NCBI GenBank assembly: GCA_009780595.1
Contig: WQZT01000102.1
Location: 1 to 6,161, forward strand
DNA: 6,161 nt
DNA from: Treponema sp.
GTDB taxonomy: Bacteria > Spirochaetota > Spirochaetia > Treponematales > Breznakiellaceae
Direction of reading: 5' to 3'
The position numbers and the translations under genes were made by a program. Positions 1-6,161 of this stretch are shown piece after piece. The notes below the pieces were generated by a model. The model was not told the origin of the DNA and searched no databases. It worked only from the letters and a program-made list of their open reading frames with translations. Numbering within the stretch: the stretch's first letter is position 1; the number at the start of each line of letters is the position of its first letter.

Positions 1-590
1 CACTGCCCGCACTTGATACACGGACCGTCGCCCAGCGGAATATCCGCCGAACTTGCGATGCGCCCCTTGTAGCCCCGCCCCTGGAACTCAAGCGCCCACA
101 CGTTTTGCACTTCCTGGCAAACCTTCACGCAACGCCCGCATTTTATGCACTTCTCCGGGTCAAGAATAATTGACGGGTTGGAATCATCAATCGGAAGATT
201 TCTGAGTATCTGCTTAAAGCGCATCTCCCTGATTCCGAACTCCGCCGCCAGATTTTGTAGCTCGCAGCTGCCGTTGCGCGGGCATTGCAGACAATCGCTG
301 GGATGGTTGCTGAGCATAAGCTCCACGACAGTGCGGCGCGTGGCAATAATCTCAGGGTCGTGGGTGATAATGTCCATATTCTCCGCCACTTTTGTGGAGC
401 AGGCACGAGCCATGCGCGGAGAACCCGGCCCCGCCGTCCGCACAATGCAGAGCCCGCACGCCGCCCAGGGAGTCAGATTCGGGTTATAGCAGAGCGTAGG
501 AATCTTTATGTTGATTTTCTTCGCCGCTTCCAAAATGGTACTATTCTCTTCAACCTGAAGTGGTTTACCGTTAACTTTAATATTCACCAT
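1..590 (-). CDS. hndD: [FeFe]-hydrogenase catalytic subunit HndD/HydA, N-terminal part (cut by window edge)
   Basis: The first 196 residues are visible; the rest lies left of base 1. In order they show a plant-type [2Fe-2S] domain (Cys34, Cys45, Cys48, Cys64), a His-Cys cluster motif H96-x3-C100-x2-C103-x5-C109, and a ferredoxin-type [4Fe-4S] motif C148-x2-C151-x2-C154-x3-C158. The second cubane motif begins at C191-x2-C194. This is the electron-relay module shared by complex I NuoG and by multi-subunit [FeFe] hydrogenases. The neighbouring NuoE-, HndB- and NuoF-like genes make the hydrogenase subunit, which reduces protons or oxidises H2 in the cytoplasm, the best reading. The H-cluster domain that would prove it is outside the window, so a NuoG-like formate dehydrogenase subunit is not formally excluded. 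The ATG at 590 follows an AGGAG with a 7-nt spacer, 10 bp after the hndC stop. Confidence 0.88.
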   Translation of the reverse strand, partial: MVNIKVNGKPLQVEENSTILEAAKKINIKIPTLCYNPNLTPWAACGLCIVRTAGPGSPRMARACSTKVAENMDIITHDPEIIATRRTVVELMLSNHPSDCLQCPRNGSCELQNLAAEFGIREMRFKQILRNLPIDDSNPSIILDPEKCIKCGRCVKVCQEVQNVWALEFQGRGYKGRIASSADIPLGDGPCIKCGQ

Positions 591-600
591 TTTTTAGCTC

Positions 601-2421
601 CTATGCCTTGATAATGGCTTGGAATTTACAAGCGCTTAAGCACTCGCCGCATTTCACGCAGTTTTCCGAATTAATAAAATACGGCGGTCGTTTCCTGTCA
701 GGGTACTTCGCCGCGTCCTCCAGTGAAATACAGTTAGCCGGGCAGCGCGTAGCACACGCCTTGCAACTAATGCACTTTTCAGGAATTATCGTAAAGCTGA
801 GCAAGTTTTTGCACTTTCCCGCCCGGCATTTTTTATCGTGAATATGCTCTTTGATCTCGTCCATAAAGTTTTTGAGCGTGGACATTACCGGATTTGGCGC
901 AGTTTGCCCCAACGCGCACAGCGACGCTTTCGCCATCGCTTTGCCAATGGCTTCGATTTTTGGAATGTCCGAATCTTCGCCTGTGCCGCCTGAGATTTTA
1001 TTGAGCAGTTCGAGCAACTGGACAGTTCCAATGCGGCAGGGCGCGCACTTCCCGCACGATTCGTCGACGCAGAAATCCATGTAAAACCGCGCAACGTCAA
1101 CCATGCAGTCGTCTTCGTCCATAACGATCATACCGCCTGAACCCATCATCGAGCCGTTGGCAACCAGCGATTCAAAGTCGATGGGCACATCAAGCGCCGC
1201 TTCGGTGAGAATACCGCCTGACGGCCCGCCGGTTTGAACACCCTTGAACTTCTTGCCGCTGCGAATTCCGCCGCCAATGTCAAAGATAATCTCGCGCAAC
1301 GTCGTTCCCATCGGCACTTCCACAAGACCGGAATTTTTCACCTTTCCCGTCAGCGCAAAAACTTTCGTGCCCTTGGATTTCTCAGTCCCGATTTGCGCCA
1401 GCCATGCGCCGCCTTTGGTCATAATAACCGGAACGTTTACCAGCGTTTCCACGTTGTTGATGATAGTCGGCTTGCCCCACAAGCCTTCGTTGGCAGGGAA
1501 GGGCGGCTTCGGCACAGGCATTCCGCGGTTGCCTTCGACCGACTTAATCAGCGCCGTCTCTTCGCCGCAGACAAACGCGCCCGCGCCCAGCCGGATTTCA
1601 ATCTCGAAATCAAAGCCCGAGCCGAGAATGTTCTTGCCCAACAGCCCGAATTCCTCCGCCTGCTTCAGCGCCTTTTCCAGCCGCTCCAGCGCCAGCGGAT
1701 ACTCGGCACGGATATACACAATCCCGTAATTCGCGCCAATCGCCTTACCAGCCGTGATCATTCCCTCAATCACCGAGTGCGGATCGCCTTCGATTACAGA
1801 CCTGTCCATATAGGCGCCAGGATCACCTTCATCGGCGTTGCAGATAATGTACTTCGGGCTGCCAGTTGCTTTCCGCGCCAAATCCCACTTCATCCACGTG
1901 GGGAACCCCGCGCCGCCGCGCCCGCGTAACCCCGAGATTTTCACCTCTTCGATAATCTTCTCAGGCGTCCACTCGAAGAGGGCTTTTTCAAGCCCCTGAT
2001 AGCCTTCGCGGGCGATATATTCGTTGATACTTTCAGGATCGATGCTGCCGCAGTTTCGCAACGCCACGCGGAACTGCTTTTGGTAAAACTTAATGTCGTG
2101 AACCTTCAGAGTATCCTTATGCTCCTGCTCTCCGTCACCTTTGTACAGCAGCCTTTTTACTTCGCGCCCTTTGATAATATGCTCCTCGATAATTTCGGGA
2201 ACATCCTTCGGCGTTACATAGACGTAGAACGAATCTTCAGGGAGCACTTTGACGATTGGACCAGCTTCGCAAAAACCAAAGCAGCCCGTTTTCACAACCT
2301 GCACCTGATTTGCTATACCGTGTTTTACCGTCTCCGCGATCAAGCTCTTGTAAATCTCGTCGCCCTGATTTGATTCGCACGCAGTTCCGCCGCAAACAAG
2401 AATAAAGTGATTGTACGACAT
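601..2421 (-). CDS. hndC: NuoF-like flavoprotein subunit of the NAD(P)-linked [FeFe] hydrogenase (HndC/HydB)
   Basis: This 606-residue protein should be the diaphorase subunit, moving electrons between NAD(P)(H), FMN and Fe-S clusters of the hydrogenase complex. Domains in order: an N-terminal thioredoxin-like [2Fe-2S] domain (C10, C15, C47, C51); the NuoF core with the glycine-rich GRGGAGFPT nucleotide-binding loop (about 167-175) and NADEGDPGAY (195-204) for FMN; GAGAFVCGEETAL (279-291); and the N3-type [4Fe-4S] motif C456-x2-C459-x2-C462 with C502. The C-terminus carries two [4Fe-4S] ferredoxin motifs (C550/553/556/560 and C588/591/594/598). This full architecture and length match HndC of Desulfovibrio and HydB of Thermotoga; complex I NuoF lacks both end domains. 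The ATG at 2421 follows AAAGGAGG with a 6-nt spacer. HndC/HydB-type subunits are linked to flavin-based electron bifurcation; that activity is inferred here from family membership. Confidence 0.96.
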   Translation of the reverse strand: MSYNHFILVCGGTACESNQGDEIYKSLIAETVKHGIANQVQVVKTGCFGFCEAGPIVKVLPEDSFYVYVTPKDVPEIIEEHIIKGREVKRLLYKGDGEQEHKDTLKVHDIKFYQKQFRVALRNCGSIDPESINEYIAREGYQGLEKALFEWTPEKIIEEVKISGLRGRGGAGFPTWMKWDLARKATGSPKYIICNADEGDPGAYMDRSVIEGDPHSVIEGMITAGKAIGANYGIVYIRAEYPLALERLEKALKQAEEFGLLGKNILGSGFDFEIEIRLGAGAFVCGEETALIKSVEGNRGMPVPKPPFPANEGLWGKPTIINNVETLVNVPVIMTKGGAWLAQIGTEKSKGTKVFALTGKVKNSGLVEVPMGTTLREIIFDIGGGIRSGKKFKGVQTGGPSGGILTEAALDVPIDFESLVANGSMMGSGGMIVMDEDDCMVDVARFYMDFCVDESCGKCAPCRIGTVQLLELLNKISGGTGEDSDIPKIEAIGKAMAKASLCALGQTAPNPVMSTLKNFMDEIKEHIHDKKCRAGKCKNLLSFTIIPEKCISCKACATRCPANCISLEDAAKYPDRKRPPYFINSENCVKCGECLSACKFQAIIKA

Positions 2422-2439
2422 CGATAGCCTCCTTTCCGC

Positions 2440-2832
2440 TTACGCCACAATATCCGCGGCGGGTCTGTCCAGAATATGATTATCCACAAGCTTTCTTCCA
2501 ATGATGTGCTTGTCTACAATTTCCTTCGCTACTTCCTCGTTCACGTTGCCGTAAATAACAACCGGCATTCCCGGAACCGCAACTTCAACCGTCGGCTCAG
2601 AATGGCACAGCCCCATGCAACCAGTTTGCCTGACCATAACCGTTTCGACAAGGTTCTTTGTTTCAAGCGCCCGCAGAAACGCATCGAGCGTTGCCTTTCC
2701 TCCGGCAACAATTCCGCACGTTCCCATCCCGACGATAATCTGGATTTCCTTGCCCTCGATTTGCCTTCGGACAATGTCCTTCTTTGTCGAATCCCGCAGA
2801 TTCCGCAGTTCTTCCAATGTCATTTTAGCCAT
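2440..2832 (-). CDS. hndB: Thioredoxin-like [2Fe-2S] ferredoxin subunit HndB
   Basis: This 130-residue protein has the size and operon position of HndB, a small subunit of the NADP-reducing hydrogenase of Desulfovibrio. Residues about 31-85 resemble the thioredoxin-like [2Fe-2S] fold, with a GMGTCGIVAGG loop around Cys39 and a TGCMGLC motif with Cys72 and Cys76. Only three of the four ligand positions are cysteine: where HndA and HndC of this operon have C-x4-C, this protein has Gly44. I recall the CGIAAG-type loop in other HndB proteins, so this may be normal for the family, but cluster binding here is uncertain. The N-terminal 25 residues (MTLEELRNLRD onwards) look helical and may serve for docking. 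The ATG at 2832 follows AAGGAG with a 6-nt spacer. The gene sits 18 bp before hndC and 20 bp after the ATPase gene, so co-transcription is very likely. Confidence 0.9.
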   Translation of the reverse strand: MAKMTLEELRNLRDSTKKDIVRRQIEGKEIQIIVGMGTCGIVAGGKATLDAFLRALETKNLVETVMVRQTGCMGLCHSEPTVEVAVPGMPVVIYGNVNEEVAKEIVDKHIIGRKLVDNHILDRPAADIVA

Positions 2833-2852
2833 ACTCCGCTCCTTACCTTGAA

Positions 2853-3470
2853 TTAATCTCCCTCATGCTCTTCGAGGGAGCGCAAATAACGATCTAGTAA
2901 AATGATAGACTGAACATCTTCGATGCCGCCGAGCGCATCAACAAGCTCTGTTTTGCGAATCTCATAATCAGTGATGCCTTCGGGCGTTTGCCGGAAACGC
3001 TTGATAACCATTTCCGCAGGACCCTCAAACAAGAGCGACGTGCGAAACATCCCCGGAATATCCCCGACCGGCGGTGTGTCAACGTTGCCCAAATTGAACC
3101 ACGCACTGACCGTTGTGCCAGAAGCTTTCGCCGCTTGCGGCGTTCCATCGGTTGTACCGCTGGGTGCTTGCTGCCGCTTTTCGGAATCTATTTTCCAGCC
3201 GCCGCCTGATTGCTCGGAAGTCTGAATGAGAAACGGAAGCCCAAGCCCGACTTTACGCCCGGGATGTTTCACCCCGTCAGTAACGAACGGGTCTTGCGCC
3301 AGTTTTAGCTCCGCCGCCGTCATCCCTTTGCCGTTGTCCTTCACCGTAAAACGAAACTCACCGCCTGAAGCGTTGAGCGTTTCGCGCAACTCCAGTTCGA
3401 CCACATCAGCGCCGGATTCAATCCCATTTTGGGCAATGTCTGTTACCAAATCCATCAACGTAAAATGCAT
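2853..3470 (-). CDS. Stand-alone GHKL (HATPase_c) ATP-binding protein in the hydrogenase operon
   Basis: The product (205 residues from the chosen start) is a single GHKL ATP-binding domain plus a short C-terminal part. Visible motifs are the N-box region DIAQNGIESGA (11-21, Asn15), the G1 box DNGKGM (45-50) and the G2 box KVGLGLPFL (73-81). There is no sensor, membrane segment or phospho-acceptor histidine domain, so it is not a complete histidine kinase; it resembles RsbW-type kinases and the ATPase lobe of sensor kinases. A Ser/Thr/Gly/Ala/Gln-rich insert (about 98-117) splits the usual G2-to-last-strand segment. I chose ATG at 3470 because AAGGA precedes it by 6 nt and the domain starts there. 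The frame stays open to a TTG at 3530, 6 bp after the hndA stop, which would give 225 residues but has no ribosome-binding site. Its place between hndA and hndB suggests a role in control or assembly of the hydrogenase; the actual function is unknown to me. Confidence 0.87.
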   Translation of the reverse strand: MHFTLMDLVTDIAQNGIESGADVVELELRETLNASGGEFRFTVKDNGKGMTAAELKLAQDPFVTDGVKHPGRKVGLGLPFLIQTSEQSGGGWKIDSEKRQQAPSGTTDGTPQAAKASGTTVSAWFNLGNVDTPPVGDIPGMFRTSLLFEGPAEMVIKRFRQTPEGITDYEIRKTELVDALGGIEDVQSIILLDRYLRSLEEHEGD

Positions 3471-3476
3471 TCGCAA

Positions 3477-3481
3477 TCCTT
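3477..3481 (-). promoter_or_regulatory. Ribosome-binding site deciding the ATPase start
   Basis: On the minus strand AAGGA lies 6 nt before the ATG at 3470. No purine-rich site precedes the alternative TTG at 3530, which would have to rely on coupling to the hndA stop. This favours the shorter 205-residue protein. Confidence 0.6.
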
Positions 3482-3536
3482 CGCTTTCAAGTACCGTGTT
3501 TGTGATGTTTCGTGCGTGTTCCGCAATCAAGAATGA

Positions 3537-4025
3537 TCAGGCGTTCTGGTACTTTGCGATGATACCCGGCAGCATATCTTTGGTGAGTTTGCCGTAATTT
3601 TCCGCACCAACCGTGAGAATCGGCGCAAGCCCGCAACAACCGATGCAGCGTACCGCGTCGACAGAGAAAAGCCCGTCGCTGGTAACCCCATCAGGTGCAA
3701 GCCCTAAAATCTGCCGTGTTTCGTCGAGAAGATCCTGCCCGCCTTTGAGGTAGCAAGCCGTTCCCATACACACGGCAATCCGGTATTTTCCCGGTTTGAC
3801 AGTTTTGAAGAAGTGGTAAAAGGAGATAACTCCATAGACGCGGGCAAGCGGAATGTTTGTCATTTTAGACAACGTGCCTGCCGTTTCCCGTGAAATGTAC
3901 CCGAACGTCTCCTGCGTTTTATGAAGCATCATAATTAATCCGCCCGGCTTCTTCTTCCATTCGTTGATGAATGAAACAAGCTCCTCTGGAAACGCATTGC
4001 TCTGTTCAGATTTTACCGCAATCAT
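3537..4025 (-). CDS. hndA: NuoE-like [2Fe-2S] subunit of the NAD(P)-linked [FeFe] hydrogenase (HndA/HydC)
   Basis: This is a 162-residue NuoE/24-kDa-family protein. The N-terminal half is a helical domain (LIMMLHKTQETFGYIS around 30-45, then a GVISFYHFF-type segment around 65-73). The C-terminal half is the thioredoxin-like [2Fe-2S] domain with ligands C86-x4-C91 and C127-x3-C131; an additional Cys130 lies between the last two. In the HndABCD/HydABC complexes this subunit docks on the NuoF-like subunit and carries electrons near the FMN. It is the first gene of the operon. An upstream in-frame ATG at 4043 would add six residues. I place the start at ATG 4025 because a perfect GGAGG lies 5 nt before it, and that Shine-Dalgarno would be inside the gene if the longer form were used. 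Length and motifs are normal for the family. Confidence 0.94.
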   Translation of the reverse strand: MIAVKSEQSNAFPEELVSFINEWKKKPGGLIMMLHKTQETFGYISRETAGTLSKMTNIPLARVYGVISFYHFFKTVKPGKYRIAVCMGTACYLKGGQDLLDETRQILGLAPDGVTSDGLFSVDAVRCIGCCGLAPILTVGAENYGKLTKDMLPGIIAKYQNA

Positions 4026-4030
4026 GAATA

Positions 4031-4035
4031 CCTCC
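4031..4035 (-). promoter_or_regulatory. Ribosome-binding site deciding the hndA start
   Basis: On the minus strand GGAGG is followed by a 5-nt spacer (TATTC) and ATG at 4025. It supports the internal methionine over the ATG at 4043. Confidence 0.8.
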
Positions 4036-4057
4036 GATGGCATAGATGCTTTTGATC

Positions 4058-5141: not shown

Positions 5142-5834
5142 ATGTTTGATAGGTTCAATAAGAAAACTCTTTGCATCTTTGCTGTAATTGTGCTGGGGGT
5201 TTCCAGCCTGAGTGCCAAAGATACGGCAACGTTTGTCGATCTTGGCTTTTCGTCTGACGGTGCAACGTTTATGTTCGCACAGTACGGCGTTCATTCGGGA
5301 ACGCTGAAAGCTTGGGCGGATTTGGGCGTTGTTGATGTTGCAGGAAGCAGCTTTGTCCAGGACGGAAGGGTGTCGTACACGAATGATCGGCCTGTTGTTT
5401 TTGGGCAGGACGGTTCTGGGGCGTTTCACACCGCGCTGGTGAAGAATGTTCCGCTGGTACAACGGAACAAAATCGACCATACCGTACAAGGCCGCCCTCT
5501 GTTTATTTCGATAGGCGGCAAGGATACAAACGAAATCCAGTTCAGAAACTTTGAAACTGGCGCTCTGTACCGGGCATCGTTAATTCAAACATCAGAGGGT
5601 AGAGGCGTATCGTTGGCATCGTCGTTCCATATCAACCTTGTACGGGAAGCCAAAGACGGAACGCGCACAAGCTGCACTGTTGGAGCGCCACAGTTCAAGC
5701 GGGCGATGGTGTCGTCGTACCAGATTCGGCAGGTGCGTGTTTACGGCACTTCGATGGTTTTGGTTATCGAGATGACAAAGCTGGAAGCCGGACAACCCAC
5801 GATACGTTATATGGTAGAAACTGTACATTTTTAA
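5142..5834 (+). CDS. Predicted secreted DUF2259-like protein
   Basis: This 230-residue protein begins with a clear Sec signal peptide: basic N-terminus (FNKK), hydrophobic core at residues 10-20, and a likely signal peptidase I site after SLSA (residue 25), leaving a mature periplasmic or secreted protein. There is no lipobox cysteine at the cleavage site. The mature N-terminus, FVDLGFSSDGATFMFAQYG (31-49) followed by WADLGVVDV, resembles DUF2259/COG5497 proteins, predicted secreted proteins of unknown function that I recall from treponemes. The C-terminus (about 185-230) looks like alternating beta strands ending in VETVHF. No catalytic motif is visible. The ATG at 5142 follows AGAGGGG with a 6-nt spacer. 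It is divergent from the membrane-protein gene and is followed by a terminator-like hairpin and the hairpin cluster. The family call rests on remembered similarity. Confidence 0.85.
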   Translation: MFDRFNKKTLCIFAVIVLGVSSLSAKDTATFVDLGFSSDGATFMFAQYGVHSGTLKAWADLGVVDVAGSSFVQDGRVSYTNDRPVVFGQDGSGAFHTALVKNVPLVQRNKIDHTVQGRPLFISIGGKDTNEIQFRNFETGALYRASLIQTSEGRGVSLASSFHINLVREAKDGTRTSCTVGAPQFKRAMVSSYQIRQVRVYGTSMVLVIEMTKLEAGQPTIRYMVETVHF

Positions 5835-5862
5835 CGTTTTTGTTTGATTCTCTTATTAATTG

Positions 5863-5889
5863 CAAGCCGCCGTACGCAACGGCGGCTTG
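5863..5889 (+). terminator. Terminator-like hairpin after the DUF2259 gene
   Basis: An 11-bp perfect stem (CAAGCCGCCGT with ACGGCGGCTTG) encloses a 5-nt loop (ACGCA), 28 bp after the stop at 5834. The stem is G/C-rich and strong, but only TTCT-like sequence follows, so the U-tract is weak and termination may be inefficient or factor-assisted. Confidence 0.6.
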
Positions 5890-5904
5890 TTCTGCACCGC
5901 GTTC

Positions 5905-5946
5905 GTACCCGTATGAAGTTTTGGCGGAGCCAAAACTTCATGGTAC
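5905..5946. repeat. Hairpin 1 of the cluster (loop GGA)
   Basis: Thirteen perfect base pairs (5913-5925 with 5929-5941) close a 3-nt loop GGA at 5926-5928 through a C-G pair. After a 3-nt bulge (5910-5912) the stem continues with GTACC 5905-5909 pairing GGTAC 5942-5946, the longest stem of the four. Confidence 0.9.
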
Positions 5947-5954
5947 ACAGGCCT

Positions 5955-5977
5955 GGAGTTTTGCTGTGCAAAACTCC
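5955..5977. repeat. Hairpin 2 of the cluster (loop TGT)
   Basis: Ten perfect base pairs, GGAGTTTTGC with GCAAAACTCC, surround the loop TGT at 5965-5967. The AGTTTTG core of its left arm is shared with hairpin 1, and part of its right arm recurs at 6007-6013. Confidence 0.9.
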
Positions 5978-6017
5978 CCAGCAAACTAGCCACAGGCTAG
6001 TTTGCCAAACTCCCCAG
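5971..6017 (+). repeat. 11-bp direct repeat bracketing hairpin 3
   Basis: AAACTCCCCAG occurs at 5971-5981 and again at 6007-6017, 36 bp apart, with hairpin 3 between the copies. Either copy of AAACTCC can pair with GGAGTTT at 5955-5961, so two folds of this segment are mutually exclusive. Confidence 0.9.
5981..6005. repeat. Hairpin 3 of the cluster (loop ACA)
   Basis: Eleven perfect base pairs, GCAAACTAGCC with GGCTAGTTTGC, surround the loop ACA at 5992-5994, again closed by C-G. Confidence 0.9.
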
Positions 6018-6043
6018 AATAATCTGCCGAAGGCAGATTATTC
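6017..6043. repeat. Hairpin 4 of the cluster (loop GAA)
   Basis: Twelve perfect base pairs, GAATAATCTGCC with GGCAGATTATTC, surround the loop GAA at 6029-6031. C-GAA-G is the loop type of the unusually stable GCGAAGC DNA mini-hairpin. It ends 39 bp before the dnaE start. Confidence 0.9.
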
Positions 6044-6082
6044 CGCTCTTGCCGTGTGCGCTGATTCCGGGTATTCTTAGCA

Positions 6083-6161
6083 ATGACCGATTTTGTACAC
6101 CTCCACGTTCACTCTGATTATTCCCTGCAAGACGCGTCGGTTGCGACGGCGAGCCTTGCCG
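6083..6161 (+). CDS. dnaE: DNA polymerase III alpha subunit, N-terminus (cut by window edge)
   Basis: Only 26 residues are visible, but they start with MTDFVHLHVHSDYSLQDA, the opening of the PHP domain of DnaE. The H-x-H motif (HLHVH) and the downstream SDYSL-DA pattern are characteristic of bacterial replicative polymerase alpha subunits. A TGA in the same frame at 6062-6064 leaves ATG 6083 as the only credible start, though no good Shine-Dalgarno is visible before it. The rest of the gene lies right of the window. PolC or a stand-alone PHP phosphoesterase are less likely, given that the motif starts at residue 4. Confidence 0.85.
   Translation, partial: MTDFVHLHVHSDYSLQDASVATASLA

Follow-up and report, generated by a model that had tools for sequence, protein, structure and literature searches.

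The window analysed here is a stretch of 6,161 nucleotides from Treponema sp. (Breznakiellaceae; contig WQZT01000102.1). At 1-4043 its minus strand carries a cluster that, judged from the translations alone, resembles an NAD-linked iron-only hydrogenase, with apparent NuoG/NuoF/NuoE-like subunits and a histidine-kinase-like ATPase. Towards the other end lie a gene for a DUF2259 secreted protein, a terminator-like hairpin, a cluster of four further hairpins, and the start of a gene that we take from its sequence to be dnaE (DNA polymerase III alpha). The features of this part are as follows, where R1 denotes a covariance model of the repeat unit built from 10 sequences:

5142..5834, plus strand: DUF2259 secreted protein, the upstream neighbour (Pfam PF10016, E = 1.8e-26)
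5863..5889, plus strand: terminator-like hairpin of 11 bp with a 5-nt loop, outside the repeat (the terminator scan scores 5869-5886)
5913..5941, minus strand: a lone hairpin A facing the next unit head-to-head, with a 13-bp stem and the loop GGA; matches to R1 at 5911-5943 (minus strand, 33.8 bits) and 5911-5946 (plus strand, 29.9 bits)
5942..5954, no strand: 13-nt spacer GGTACACAGGCCT separating the two A hairpins
5951-6006, plus strand: match of the complete unit to R1, 66.9 bits
5955..5977, plus strand: hairpin A of the complete unit, GGAGTTTTGC TGT GCAAAACTCC, 10 bp
5978..5980, plus strand: linker CCA between A and B of the complete unit
5981..6005, plus strand: hairpin B of the complete unit, GCAAACTAGCC ACA GGCTAGTTTGC, 11 bp
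6006..6016, plus strand: remnant CAAACTCCCCA, the right arm of a second A with its CCA linker, recognised by a 15-nt direct repeat
6017..6043, plus strand: 12-bp B hairpin of the truncated second unit, GAATAATCTGCC GAA GGCAGATTATTC
6083..6161, plus strand: start of dnaE, continuing beyond the window end (26-residue start compared with relatives)

The four hairpins span 5913-6043 and consist of perfect stems of 13, 10, 11 and 12 bp, all closed by C-G and capped by the triloops GGA, TGT, ACA and GAA in this order; lengths, loops and closure are exactly those given by an earlier sequence-only reading. Triloop stems of at least 9 bp number four in the window, compared with a mean of 0.04 and a maximum of 1 in 100 dinucleotide shuffles, and the 142-nt strand with the hairpins folds with z = -10.4 as RNA and -13.4 as DNA. 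The same reading had described four different hairpins, which is wrong or incomplete: two modules recur here in a set order, with the hairpins at 5913 and 5955 representing one module (A) and those at 5981 and 6017 the other (B). Only the A-CCA-B unit at 5955-6005 is complete; the hairpin at 5913-5941 is an A on its own, and at 6006-6043 a B follows half an A. A 15-nt direct repeat (D3; TGCAAAACTCCCCAG / TGCCAAACTCCCCAG, at 5967 and 6003) marks a partial tandem copy of the unit. The B stem of 6017..6043 recurs in 5 of 34 units from contigs of the window's own genome, and the spacer before hairpin A often finishes in GCNT in other copies. The four hairpins are modules, or copies, of one dispersed paired-hairpin repeat.

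The placement ahead of dnaE, which had been part of the earlier description, is not conserved among relatives. The 26-residue dnaE start has a match in 20 of 23 genomes, own genome included, and none of the 13 other genomes (of 19 matching) with at least 400 nt readable has an A-B unit upstream of the gene; in three of the 13 a different solo triloop hairpin is found there. A tblastn search with two neighbour proteins of the window gave no hit at the relatives' dnaE loci. With no common neighbour, a strict empty site is therefore not demonstrated at these loci. For a neighbour protein of 299 aa no related locus was found.

The unit consists of hairpin A, a linker of 2-3 nt, and hairpin B, and every loop is 3 nt long. 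On own-genome contigs the A stem is GRAGTTTTGGC or GGAGTTTTGC, the 10-bp form differing from the 11-bp form by one pair gone from both arms, and the B stem is variable, mostly 10-12 bp. The linkers of 39 units from this genome are CCA (24), CTA (8), TCA (4) and others (3). Longer forms of the type B-A-spacer-A-B are present in three genomes (G048, G005, G113). Two copies appear nested: at L047:2319-2367 a B hairpin lies within an A loop on a continuous stem of 23 bp, and at L060:7277-7388 a unit is apparently inserted into the loop of another unit's B. Such nested copies could delimit the mobile unit.

The own genome (G000), which is 64% complete, harbors many copies. A BLAST search with 5836-6083 returns 61 places (query itself included), model R1 gives 138 matches at E <= 0.01, with overlapping hits on the two strands counted, and the contigs examined yield 39 units, each in a context of its own, none of whose hairpins has more than one mismatch. 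The sequence-only reading had proposed a scan for triloop hairpins, and their number lies far above shuffles in this genome: 33 contigs chosen blind to hits (472,460 bases) contain 31 triloop stems of at least 9 bp, against a mean of 1.3 in three local shuffles of 200-nt blocks, and 24 of at least 11 bp, against 0. Hairpins with 4-nt loops are also enriched on these contigs, to a lesser degree (13 vs 0.7). Within the same genus, 17 stretches of G002, including one contig picked for its hits, contain 23 triloop stems of at least 9 bp (2.0 shuffled), and two stretches of G003 (40 kb) contain none (0.3 shuffled).

The expectation that the hairpin plan would be kept in relatives holds for many of them, although a third member of the genus (G001, 97% complete) has no R1 match. 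As lower bounds, since sets of more than 40 genomes were searched with stricter filters, R1 matches 25 of 58 genomes of a first relatives set at E <= 0.01 (own genome counted); 19 of these are among the 34 family relatives and 5, matched weakly with one or two matches each, among the 23 order-level genomes outside the family. At E <= 1e-5 the matched genomes number 58 among 118 of the family (own genome counted) and 3 among 149 of a phylum sample: besides the own genome, another member of the family and a genome from outside it. This multi-copy spread in genome and family bears out the suggestion of a dispersed miniature element family. A scan of named genomes with the A-hairpin pattern gave, among the matches listed, Breznakiella homolactica, many Treponema and Spirochaetaceae MAGs, some solo hairpins in other phyla, and two viral contigs, both with solo hairpins. 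Four Bacteroidales hits among these listed matches were rejected as units, being solo hairpins of 11-20 bp and of another kind. One Bacteroidales MAG, Iy174_bin98 (L249, L254, L326), carries a different repeated hairpin (...CACAGGAGTTTTGC, 18-20 bp) that has the A core. The available text of PMC13067680, which is our basis for tying Breznakiellaceae to termite guts, together with the names of the carriers, makes it likely that the carrier family is the termite-gut Breznakiellaceae.

The two arms of hairpin B change together. In an alignment of 22 B hairpins of 11 bp all 242 cells pair, which is partly due to the choice of rows, and 7 of the 11 pairs have changed on both sides. The covariation of 0.435 compares with 0.138 in shuffled alignments, and none of 500 shuffles reaches it. 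Sites can also be anchored on a perfect or near-perfect A with a YYA linker, such that the following sequence is not selected for B. Of 42 such sites in the own genome, 30 are followed by a perfect triloop hairpin of 10-12 bp, 6 by one with a single mismatch, and 6 by something poorer. In G048, 26 of 28 anchored sites are B-like and 2 are not; the B-like sites comprise 17 without change, 6 in which both arms differ at one position, 2 with a single-arm mismatch and 1 with an altered centre.

The loops vary as well. In 24 oriented units of G048 with near-identical stems, a tally in which copies are not deduplicated, the A loops are AAA (10), TTT (8), GGA (2), TCC (1) and others (3), and the B loops are AAC (14), GTT (5), GGC (1), GCC (1) and others (3); they combine as AAA+AAC (7), TTT+GTT (4), TTT+AAC (2) and AAA+GTT (1). 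In the own genome, 17 hairpins on the stem GGAGTTTTGC include the loops GTA and TAC four times each. We counted pairs of exact reverse-complement loops on identical stems in seven genomes chosen for high copy number, after deduplication and removal of doubly used hairpins, for stem classes of at least three and against 3000 column shuffles. Five of the seven show an excess that no shuffle reaches: the own genome (18 pairs vs 3.8 expected), G048 (128 vs 29.2), G131 (9 vs 1.5), G087 (26 vs 5.2) and G113 (12 vs 2.9); the shuffles ignore the kinship of copies, and separate events are fewer than these pair counts. G002 is borderline (4 vs 1.1, reached in 162 of 3000 shuffles), and G064 has no excess (0 pairs vs 0.2). 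Pooled over the seven genomes, 118 loops deviate from the modal loop, and 31 of these, 15 of them from G048, are its exact reverse complement. A set of named genomes shows the same excess, which is not independent, as this set overlaps with G048.

Not every stem takes part. The B stem GCAATGTGCT carries GAA (5) and AAA (3) with no reverse complement, a hairpin D of G048 has TGC in 10 of 13 copies and no GCA, and a hairpin C of the same genome has GTT (9), GCT (3), CTT (3) and AAC only once among 16 loops. The pooled B loops of the own genome give 14 pairs against 10.1 (p about 0.14). A loop before and after a flip at one physical locus was not seen; a local BLAST of named loci against own-genome contigs gave matches that are mostly 65-80% identical, with no usable strain pair among them, the exceptions being two matches of 87 bases with 87 and 94% identity.

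Both patterns are those of template switching at inverted repeats, and the excess of reverse-complement loops in five of seven genomes backs the earlier suggestion of such a process. DNA polymerase would switch between the two arms of a hairpin during replication, and an interstrand switch would invert the loop and rewrite one arm from the other. Because an arm is rewritten from its partner, a mutation in one arm would be either erased or copied into the other, whereas the loop itself would escape repair and drift. In its available text PMC8604942 describes template switching between inverted-repeat arms that homogenises the arms and inverts the spacer, with ten spacer inversions in yeast genes, only where arms exceed 9 bp. 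The corresponding text of PMC8794818 (PNAS 2022) ranks loop inversion accompanied by compensatory change above all other support and finds it extremely rare. The repeat described here carries both marks, arm homogenisation and loop inversion, though never both in one dated event. We conclude that the perfect pairing is probably maintained, at least in part, by replication template switching. The sequence-only reading had argued against simple duplication and for a process that makes or keeps hairpins. Of the three processes that it named, template switching and a miniature element family are supported, the third being selection on DNA/RNA shape; copying of a unit does contribute.

The rival that fares best is selection alone: the hairpins would be structured 3'-UTR or DNA-binding elements purged of unpaired changes, and the reverse-complement loops a set of stable triloops. 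Co-change of arms is equally expected under selection on RNA or DNA shape, and some loops never flip (GCA in 8 of 8 copies of the B stem GCTGAAAGCC). Position also speaks for a function in the own genome, where genes came from a simple codon-usage caller and 27 of the contigs were chosen for hits: of 33 B sides, 19 lie -30 to +15 nt from the predicted 3' end of a gene and only 1 lies that close to a 5' end, and of 21 A sides none lies at a 3' end. The stop codon is often within the B stem, and in G002 units follow two tRNA-Ser genes at 0-1 nt. Outside the own genome placement at the 3' ends of protein genes is weak (G048 3 of 60, the named set 5 of 71, G002 0 of 7), and the copy upstream of dnaE does not suit such a role. 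The loops, too, speak against selection. The main loops of G048 (AAA/TTT and AAC/GTT) differ at all three positions on near-identical stems, and just 3 of the 24 A loops and 2 of the 24 B loops are a single step away from either main loop. Selection on shape accounts for the paired arms, not for loops that jump to the reverse complement past the one-step variants, and as the sole explanation we regard it as unlikely.

The units at gene ends deserve some detail. B holds the stop codon of the adjacent gene in differing frames, for example at L075:2421-2469, L035:6135-6185, L060:7278-7330 and L062:4687-4737, and for three own-genome proteins the repeat encodes the last residues (G-E/K-L-A-x-G). 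For nine own-genome genes ending at B a Pfam search places the end of a domain within 20 residues of the C-terminus in four, one of them below cut-off, so at least those four genes do not look truncated. At L082:18095-19472 of G002 twin units lie 0-1 nt after tRNA-Ser genes and after repeated remnants of the tRNA-Ser 3' end; a tandem array, considered for this region, was rejected, as it consists of tRNA-Ser genes and 3'-end remnants followed by units. That B lies at the ends of genes in the own genome may come from a preference in insertion or from a role at the 3' end. This position suggests that some of the copies also work as 3'-end structures or are tolerated as such, and it is a hint of a function for which mutation bias does not account.

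Template switching concerns how the hairpins are kept, and a further question is how they spread. The repeat is likely a small non-autonomous mobile element, which we infer because its copies are dispersed, are near-identical in G048, and are lacking upstream of dnaE in the relatives read. Copies occupy many unrelated loci, and G048 holds many near-identical ones. Neither a transposase tied to the units, nor a target duplication, nor an empty site was found. One candidate mover is a Y1 tyrosine transposase (RAYT) that recognises folded hairpins, the repeat being of REP/REPIN type or derived from IS200/IS605. REP/REPINs are likewise high-copy, short intergenic palindromes with short loops, often arranged as head-to-head dimers (available text of PMC3116915 and PMC3733652), and the repeat shares with them short palindromes, head-to-head pairs with short spacers and multi-copy intergenic placement. 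Each half of a head-to-head A-A pair consists itself of two different hairpins, however, and such pairs may or may not correspond to the inverted doublets of REPINs. Y1_Tnp genes occur in the family, and the available text of PMC3733652 reports CGTC-type REP repeats from Spirochaetes.

The distribution of these genes does not follow that of the units. Among the family relatives, 8 of the 19 that bear units have Y1_Tnp, as do 10 of the 15 that bear none, and five of nine further unit-bearing genomes lack it; this pattern is stronger evidence than the absence of Y1_Tnp from the own genome, which is weak given a completeness of 64%. Units are near Y1 genes in none of four stretches of G048, and six other stretches gave one weak match (18 bits). 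A GTAG-like tag precedes A in 1 of 39 units and a CGTC-like tag in none. The repeat differs from REP/REPINs in lacking a GTAG/CGTC tag, in having two different hairpins per unit, and in that no RAYT association was found, and we consider an origin of this kind improbable. RAYTs are described as single-copy in the available text of PMC3116915. Genes of RAYT size with Y1_Tnp matches reach high copy in G044 (at least 62, which is the number scored out of 102 candidates) and in G040 (28); R1 matches neither of the two genomes. In G048 a separate 14-bp palindrome with a 4-nt loop (AGCTGTTCTGAAAC; L189, L190, L191) is present on the contigs that carry 3 of the 4 Y1_Tnp genes and perhaps represents a conventional REP family.

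Even less probable is a family of non-canonical bidirectional transcription terminators amplified by recombination: units do occur in both orientations between convergent genes with B outward (e.g. L047, L080), yet a T tract follows none of the four window hairpins, copies are too few for most genes (34 units beside 483 predicted genes on the contigs examined), and loops and B stems vary freely. Ordinary intrinsic terminators were rejected, in line with the earlier reading, as the terminator scan scores only 5869-5886 and none of the four hairpins. A CRISPR array, to which that reading had likewise seen no resemblance, is rejected since no direct repeats with regular unique spacers are found in 5600-6161, and a known RNA family is rejected with 0 Rfam matches at gathering.

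Integron attC sites conserve structure over sequence and are placed 3' of genes. The two separate triloop hairpins of the repeat presumably depart from the attC plan, and attC sites were rejected, as an integron-integrase over cut-off was found in none of 10 genomes searched, of which 7 are drafts less than 90% complete or contaminated above the filter; matches below cut-off are seen in each of the 10, and also in each of the 14 control genomes.

The closest known systems are the mitochondrial RHE/DHE elements, which according to the available text of PMC2800124 are likewise short dispersed units of at least one hairpin with conserved stems and variable loops, lineage-specific, and thought to be mobile with an unknown mover. 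As in double-hairpin elements, the double hairpins found here are dispersed in many copies, and their stems are conserved while the loops vary. The twin-hairpin repeat differs from them by its location on a bacterial chromosome, its fixed A-linker-B order with triloops, B stems that vary in both arms and more than the RHE/DHE definition implies, and the excess of reverse-complement loops. Among the papers listed on repeats and hairpins of such kind, outside subscription journals, no title or abstract opening describes it, and it appears to be a previously undescribed variant of repetitive hairpin elements. With template-switch mutation it shares arm homogenisation and spacer or loop inversion at perfect inverted repeats; the published cases, as given in the available text of PMC8604942 and PMC8794818, are isolated (10 yeast spacer inversions, 69 rRNA clusters with loop inversion only), whereas the twin-hairpin repeat shows apparent recurrence within one dispersed family and in several genomes.

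Taken together, we consider it fairly likely that the cluster consists of copies of a twin-hairpin repeat, likely a small mobile element, whose arms are probably kept paired by template switching. A bolder version, which we offer as speculative, is that termite-gut spirochaetes carry self-perfecting hairpin parasites, which switching at the fork repairs, diversifies and flips without a dedicated enzyme or a benefit to the host, and for which it may also seed copies. If this were true, structure would persist while sequence drifts freely. Compensatory change in a hairpin is usually taken as a mark of selection on structure. Paralogous hairpins with free loops appear to record the flips of the polymerase, such that maintenance by template switching could be measured rather than assumed. 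These genomes offer many candidate loop inversions, an unusually rich record, and the repeat likely marks a major family of termite symbionts.
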